35,812 nucleotides of DNA from Acidimicrobiaceae bacterium (lineage in GTDB: Bacteria; Actinomycetota; Acidimicrobiia; Acidimicrobiales; Ilumatobacteraceae): positions 16,616 to 52,427 of the forward strand of contig JAAXJF010000031.1 in NCBI GenBank assembly GCA_012269985.1, in the 5' to 3' direction. Positions 15,402 to 35,812 of the stretch are shown in pieces. The notes under the pieces are model-generated. The model saw only the letters and a list, made by a program, of their open reading frames with translations, did no database searches and was not told the origin of the DNA. Numbering within the stretch: position 1 is the stretch's first letter; each line of letters starts with the position of its first letter. Position numbers and translations under genes: made by a program.

Positions 15402-16163
15402 ATGGAAGTCAAAGGATGGTCAGGGGAACGTCGCCCATCTCGGATGATCAACGTTGGCGGCGTCCCAGTTGGCGGTGACTCACCGATCACGGTGCAGTCG
15501 ATGACGGTGACAAAAACCGCTGACGTTGAAGGAACACTGCAACAGATCTATGCGCTCGCCGCAGCCGGATGCGACATCATTCGGTGTACCTGCAACGAAC
15601 CGGAGGCCGCGGTCGGCCTCGCTCAGATCGTTCCTCGTTCACCGATTCCGGTGATTGCCGACATCCACCACCAATACAAGATGGCACTTGCTGCGTTAGA
15701 TGCAGGAGTGCACGGGCTGCGACTCAACCCGGGAAACATTCGCCGACCAGAACACATCAAGGCAGTTGCGAGTGAATGTCGAGATCGGGGCGTGCCGATT
15801 CGCATCGGCGTTAATGCAGGATCACTCGACCCTGACCTTTATGAGAAGCACGGAGGAGCAACGCCTGAGGCCATGGTCGAGTCTGCGCAGAGAGAACTCG
15901 AGTATTTCGCGGAGGTCGATTTTGATCTCGTGAAGATCTCGGTCAAGGCATCGAGTGTCCCGTTGATGGTCGAGGCCTACCGGCAACTCGCAGAGGTGAC
16001 CGACCATCCGTTGCATCTCGGAGTAACTGAAGCAGGCCCGCCGCCCGCAGGGCTGGTGAAAGCCACCGCGGGGATTTCGACGCTTCTCATGGAGGGCATT
16101 GGTGACACCATTCGGTATTCACTGACGGCCGACCCGGTCGAGGAGGCTCGTGCAGGCCGCTAA
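15402..16163 (+). CDS. ispG: IspG, N-terminal TIM-barrel part ending at a premature TAA
   Basis: IspG (GcpE) reduces MEcPP to HMBPP with a [4Fe-4S] cluster in the MEP pathway. From the ATG at 15402 (GAGGAG upstream) the frame encodes the substrate-binding TIM barrel: GGDSPITVQSMTVTKTADVEGT, VIADIHHQYKMALAALDAGVHGLRLNPGNI, GVNAGSLD, HLGVTEAGPP and GIGDTIRYSLTADPVEEARAGR. A TAA at 16161-16163 then ends translation after 253 residues, where relatives continue with LLxALGLR. The sequence does continue in exactly the same frame with LLEALGLRERKNVDL, so this is one gene interrupted by a base substitution and not a frameshift. Without the cluster domain the product cannot be active. See the 3' part and the findings for error-versus-pseudogene alternatives. 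Confidence 0.9.
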   Translation: MEVKGWSGERRPSRMINVGGVPVGGDSPITVQSMTVTKTADVEGTLQQIYALAAAGCDIIRCTCNEPEAAVGLAQIVPRSPIPVIADIHHQYKMALAALDAGVHGLRLNPGNIRRPEHIKAVASECRDRGVPIRIGVNAGSLDPDLYEKHGGATPEAMVESAQRELEYFAEVDFDLVKISVKASSVPLMVEAYRQLAEVTDHPLHLGVTEAGPPPAGLVKATAGISTLLMEGIGDTIRYSLTADPVEEARAGR

Positions 16164-16643
16164 CTACTTGAGGCGCTCGGGCTTCGCGAGCGAAAGAATG
16201 TTGATCTCATTGCATTTCAATCATGTTTTCTATCATAAGTTGATGTCATCGAAGTTGCCCAAAAAGCGATTGAGTCATTTGGTGAAGGTCAACTTCCTTT
16301 GCAGGTAGCGGTGATGGGATGTGTCGTGAACGGACCAGGCGAAGCACGAGAGGCCGACCTTGGAATCGCTGCAGGAAACAAGCGAGGCCATCTGTTTATT
16401 AAAGGTCGTAACGTAGCCGTCGTACCTGAAGATGAAATGGTTGGAGCGCTTGTCGAAGGGGCCGAATGCATTCACGTACACGGCACCGAAGCGGCAATCG
16501 CTCGCGCTGATACGGCTCGTGCGGAACGTGAGGCCGAGAAAGACCGGTCGATGTTGCTCGCAGAACAGGGCGATGATGCGAACAATGCGAGCGAACGCAT
16601 CGTTGAGATCGGTCGCCGCCTCTCAGGCGACAGCGCGTCGTAA
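16164..16643 (+). pseudogene. ispG: IspG, C-terminal iron-sulfur domain in the same frame, damaged
   Basis: This continues the ispG frame without any indel. It reads LLEALGLRERKNVDLIA, then FQSCFLS and a second TAA (16236-16238), then VDVIEVAQKAIESFGEG and the intact QVAVMGCVVNGPGEAREADLGIAAGNKRGHLFIKGRNVAVVPED. The family normally has CPSCGRA at the FQSCFLS position, so the first cluster cysteine is replaced by Phe. The second cysteine (SC) and the third (MGCVVNG) remain, as does the NGPGEA motif. A charged C-terminal tail of about 60 residues follows. Damage is confined to a few codons, while both flanks match the family closely, which is unlike ordinary pseudogene decay. Its TAA stop overlaps the TAATTA that also ends the convergent lyase gene. 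Confidence 0.85.
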
Positions 16644-35589: not shown

Positions 35590-35812
35590 AGAAAATACTG
35601 AATCTTAACCAGGAAACCATTTAAATATCTCGGTGATGCCACCCATATGTACCCGGTGATGTTGTCGGCCGGTGAGGAGTGCCGCTCGGGTGGGCGAGCA
35701 CAATGCTGTGGGGTGGAACTGGTTGTACGACGGGCACTCATCGGCGACTCGTTAGAGAGCGGGCGTGGGCACAGGGGGCACGATCACGGGCTGTGCCCGC
35801 TATCTGAAGACG
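35590..35812 (-). pseudogene. arylsulfatase N-terminal part with active site, interrupted, runs off window
   Basis: In the same minus-strand frame as the C-terminal part it reads [19 protein letters not shown], with the formylglycine cysteine at 35700-35698 (TGC of CSPTR), then [16 protein letters not shown], an odd FKWFPG and a TAA (35607-35605), then DSVFSVEAAS, which joins the downstream frame. The sulfatase family usually has EIATGFPGY at FKWFPG*, so the stop replaces a Tyr. Further upstream the frame has two more stops (a TAA in PTPAL*RVADE and a TAG nearer the window end), where the sequence is less certain. The gene's true start is outside the window. Confidence 0.75.

Follow-up and report, generated by a model that had tools for sequence, protein, structure and literature searches.

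Two stops and a lost motif in the ispG gene of a draft actinobacterial genome: a probable local consensus error

The ispG gene in the stretch of DNA analysed here (the window, 35,812 bases) is read with two in-frame stops and without its CPSCGRAE motif. On the basis of sequence comparisons, we consider it very probable that this patch arose as a local consensus error when the draft genome was assembled from short reads, and that the gene itself is not mutated. A tail of poor quality, contributed by one read or a few and running from left to right up to 16236, would have entered the consensus at a place where depth was presumably thin, with G called as T and C called as A within the tail. The sequencing platform was probably a four-colour Illumina instrument, and the isolated C>T change at 16161 may be part of the same tail. 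The living cell would keep an ordinary, intact IspG.

The window covers the last 35.8 kb of contig C49 (52,427 bases), up to the contig end (window position 35812). It is immediately preceded by a 10-N gap (C49:16606−16615), and no N gap was found inside it. The source assembly is a draft (2.15 Mb, 103 contigs) with a completeness of about 94%. The genomes closest to it come from the environment and bear the titles Ilumatobacteraceae, Acidimicrobiaceae or Actinobacteria.

The interrupted ispG frame

A re-reading of the window agrees with the preliminary description that the ispG frame runs from 15402 to 16643 with no indel and carries TAA at 16161−16163 and 16236−16238. The frame as a whole scored 364.9 bits against TIGR00612, above the cut-off, and covered model positions 1−353 of 357. 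Its two halves were also matched separately by the profile NF001540 (15402−16160, 1.8e-98; 16239−16640, 2.3e-20). Both parts of IspG are present, the TIM-barrel part and the C-terminal MGC..NGPGE part. The CPSCGR motif, which is presumably cluster-binding, is absent from the printed consensus. The frame therefore resembles the IspG/GcpE family in matching TIGR00612 and in keeping MGCVVNGPGE, and differs from it by the missing CPSCGRAE and the two stops. The features discussed are listed in table 1.

Table 1. Positions of the features discussed, in window coordinates.
Feature	Position	Strand	Remarks
ispG, flavodoxin-dependent HMBPP synthase, consensus frame interrupted	15402..16643	+	two TAA; TIGR00612 match
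First in-frame TAA	16161..16163	+	CAA (Gln) in three nearest relatives, one C>T
Putative error patch over CPSCGRAE codons	16216..16236	+	six G>T and one C>A, unanimous
Second in-frame TAA	16236..16238	+	at a Glu invariant in 85/85 distinct relatives
Degraded patch in sulfatase frame near end of C49	35587..35626	-	stop at 35607

In each of 99 ispG loci from relatives, the first 370 aligned columns were free of stops. After identical sequences were merged, 85 distinct ones covered the site, and every one of them reads CPSCGRAE where the window has FQSCFLS followed by a stop; the replacement of the usual CPSCGRA by FQSCFLS between the two TAA codons, reported earlier, is thus borne out. The origin proposed for the first stop, a G>T change in a GAA codon, is not. 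Position 254, where this TAA falls, is Gln in 83 of the 85 distinct relatives and Thr in the other two, and the change is CAA to TAA by C>T. The clustered patch is accordingly confined to 16216−16236, with 16161 an isolated change 55 bases upstream. The three nearest relatives aligned with the window at equal length over 16001−16420, with identities of 90.7, 89.5 and 86.9% over these 420 bases, and the site is intact in all three genomes (87−91% over the site).

In the part before the patch, 12 of the changes specific to the window were silent and two were not. The corresponding counts for the three relatives were 7/1, 8/2 and 26/8, so ispG has apparently been under ordinary constraint. In the part that follows the patch (16239−16640), six of 16 changes in the window altered the protein, compared with five of 28 in the three relatives together. 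This excess is in the direction expected of a dead gene, at p = 0.17. Two of the six (16253 C>A and 16271 G>T) match the spectrum of the patch; the altering changes also include those at 16458 and 16468.

Spectrum of the patch and damage elsewhere in the assembly

We counted changes that were specific to the window and unanimous against the three nearest relatives. The patch contains G>T at 16216, 16227, 16228, 16231, 16233 and 16236 and C>A at 16219. Six of its seven G sites and one of its five C sites were changed, but none of the two A or four T sites; a further three sites were not unanimous. The skew to G>T and C>A described previously for the motif therefore extends to all seven unanimous changes, as against 60 of 625 in the remaining comparable window (Fisher p = 1.1e-7), or 51 of 598 when the contig end is excluded. 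Such a spectrum is unlike the lineage's own substitutions and fits miscalls. When the window's 67 G>T/C>A changes were placed uniformly, seven within 21 bp were reached in none of 20,000 placements. The C>T at 16161, which falls outside this class, speaks against an error, as does the lack of an N gap within the window.

To see whether the patch is unique in this genome, 1.11 Mb of it was compared with 1.11 Mb of the relative G015, giving 509 kb of comparable sequence. At least six G>T/C>A differences within 21 bp were found at three places: position 16216 of the window (8 differences), L205 403 (7) and L190 11116 (7). The first count is 8 where the unanimous count was 7 because a single relative served as reference. 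In 2000 simulations with the 1770 G>T/C>A differences placed uniformly, the maximum was five per 21 bases. Other classes of change cluster as well, with seven T>C/A>G in 21 bp at L195 14399 and six T>G/A>C at L193 2359, so a uniform spread is an overly strict null, and the nature of the L205 and L190 clusters weighs more than these statistics.

The L190 cluster (G000:C21) lies in a duplicated stretch. Over 10846−11190 the same stretch stands on either side of a 10-N gap, clean on the left and garbled on the right. The right copy matches the clean one near its right side and decays leftward to A-rich nonsense with a run of A. The first 60 bases along the decay hold 22 differences (9 G>T, 5 C>A, 4 A>T, 3 C>T and 1 A>G), and of the 91 differences within 150 bases, 58 are changes to T. 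The garbled copy has the look of a read tail that failed and was retained in the assembly, and the error types that lead in it, G>T and C>A, also make up the ispG patch, although its early A>T and C>T are absent from that patch. Since the garbled copy adjoins its own clean copy, this assembly produces such a spectrum even where nothing has mutated in the cell, and a demonstrable consensus error of the kind proposed for ispG is present in the same genome.

L205 corresponds to contig C78, whose start encodes DNA polymerase III alpha (TIGR00594). Here 17 unanimous changes against three relatives fall within 348−421 (6 C>A, 4 G>T, 4 A>T and 3 others), and two in-frame TAG codons interrupt the frame within the patch; the finger domain lies downstream. 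Another contig, C14, ends in the front part of a polymerase III alpha gene. We infer that the broken C78 gene is the replicative polymerase, while the uninterrupted homologue carried by C96 leaves its essential status in doubt. Near the end of C49, the 16 unanimous changes of the degraded sulfatase patch include 11 to T on the - strand, and 11 further changes at 35703−35773 are accompanied by a second stop at 35754; in three relatives the sulfatase frame is open over 35500−35776. Both the polymerase (dnaE) and the contig-end patches are probably further consensus errors, although their more mixed spectra (10 of 17 and 6 of 16 changes, respectively, in the G>T/C>A class) count against this.

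Published error profiles offer a partial parallel. On the HiSeq, the commonest substitutions reported were A/C (29.2%) and G/T (26.8%) exchanges, for which a shared laser was held responsible; where read ends were of low quality, errors crowded densely into one region (PMC3334598). The ispG patch shares with these region-specific Illumina errors both the same-laser exchanges G>T and C>A and the dense packing. In contrast, the HiSeq hot spots described in that study mostly run the other way, 118 of 136 positions being dominated by miscalls of A or T as G or C, whereas the patch runs from G/C to T/A; the commonest GAIIx error given there is A into C. The errors in PMC3334598 were also seen in reads, whereas the ispG patch stands in a consensus. 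Regarding assemblies, Chen et al. (2020) described local errors in metagenome-assembled genomes that spoil protein-coding genes, as well as IDBA-UD and CLC assemblies in which Ns had been put between flanks that overlap (PMC7111523). The wrong consensus stretches and the Ns between overlapping ends reported there for public draft genomes are both found here.

By eye, a 6-base inverted repeat (16174−16179 and 16187−16192) lies upstream of the patch, a candidate for a hairpin trigger of Illumina errors. Simple dephasing was rejected, as the wrong bases do not consistently copy a neighbour (also by eye).

Taken together, the change at 16161, the altering changes after the patch and the direction of the published hot spots do not outweigh the L190 pair and the repeated damage. 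Of the two origins suggested for the patch in the preliminary description, a clustered error is well supported by the L190 control, the spectrum and the other patches, and a focused mutation process is not needed. Claims of gene loss from draft environmental genomes require read support, and where G>T/C>A changes cluster at invariant codons, they provide a usable flag for read-tail errors in draft assemblies.

Gene loss, focused mutation and the isoprenoid pathway

Were the interruption real, the cell would have lost an enzyme that it is expected to depend on, the MEP pathway being described as essential to most bacteria (PMC11218510). With this pathway in place but IspG missing, growth would be expected to need isoprenoids from outside. 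The main alternative to a consensus error is that ispG is a genuine, very recent pseudogene, with isoprenoids scavenged or an ispG located in the unassembled part of the genome. We regard this as improbable. The two stops and the loss of a motif cysteine are in its favour, as is the slight, non-significant excess of altering changes after the stops. Pseudogene decay, on the other hand, would be spread over the gene and made up mostly of common substitution types, whereas the disabling changes here amount to one patch of a single class and one C>T; seven transversions of the same kind within 21 bp, next to coding sequence that is well preserved, do not resemble gradual decay.

The genomic setting also argues against loss. 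Upstream of ispG, the window carries an uninterrupted dxr, as described previously, and an RseP-like protease (123 bits, below the model cut-off of 148). A search for the other pathway genes had been recommended; ours took in dxs, dxr, ispF and ispH. All four were found uninterrupted, with dxs on C70, ispF on C88 and ispH on C33. The front part of ispG was matched in 54 of 61 genomes (this one and 60 relatives), and the gene is present in all 46 genomes, again including this one, with a completeness of at least 90% and a contamination of no more than 5%.

It had been pointed out that a real loss would call for another copy of ispG. A family search of the whole assembly revealed no second ispG, the sole TIGR00612 match being the interrupted one, although at about 94% completeness a second copy could be missing. 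A mevalonate bypass was set aside, as HMG-CoA reductase gave no match in the genome in a search that was positive in five of 14 control genomes. Within the limits of that completeness, the lack of both makes a genuine loss of ispG unlikely.

A focused biological mutation, whether a single multi-base event, an oxidative burst of G>T or targeted hypermutation, is more improbable still. The strong bias to G (six of seven G sites changed, none of the six A/T sites) would suit such a process, as would the similar, more mixed patch in the polymerase gene on C78, but the L190 pair, garbled beside clean across its N gap, yields the spectrum without mutation in the cell. We found no sign of a donor for template switching or gene conversion: a 116-base query across the patch matched only the site itself in the genome, a search in which a donor just a few dozen bases long could be missed. 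Equally remote is a G>T process in this actinobacterial lineage that hits conserved genes such as ispG and dnaE patch by patch, with some cells living on their neighbours' isoprenoids. Recoding or readthrough of TAA was dismissed because the motif codons are wrong too.

Surroundings of the N gaps

The 1.11 Mb examined contains 26 gaps, 24 of them of 10 N. A GC content of 36% or less was observed in four of 51 gap flanks of 50 bases, compared with 0.185% of random places (p = 2.7e-6), while gap flanks overall did not have lowered GC (p = 0.31). The rate of G>T/C>A differences against distance from the gaps gives an uneven, mixed picture: 8/582 sites within 50 bases, 1/728 at 51−100, 15/1557 at 101−200, 18/4749 at 201−500 and 1421/412,636 beyond. 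T>G/A>C differences within 50 bases of gaps also numbered 8/582.

In the comparison with G015, clusters at L193 2353−2420 and 4029−4080 and at L163 80−150 have T/A in G015 and G/C in the window's genome; these may be similar errors in G015 or diverged regions. Low-complexity or AT-rich stretches were observed at L128 15111−15150, L169 9698−9730, L206 1120−1192, L129 19010−19060, L246 before 1245 and L192 19604. Five of the six adjoin N gaps, that in L192 being the one with no listed gap, and all of them look like further read tails.
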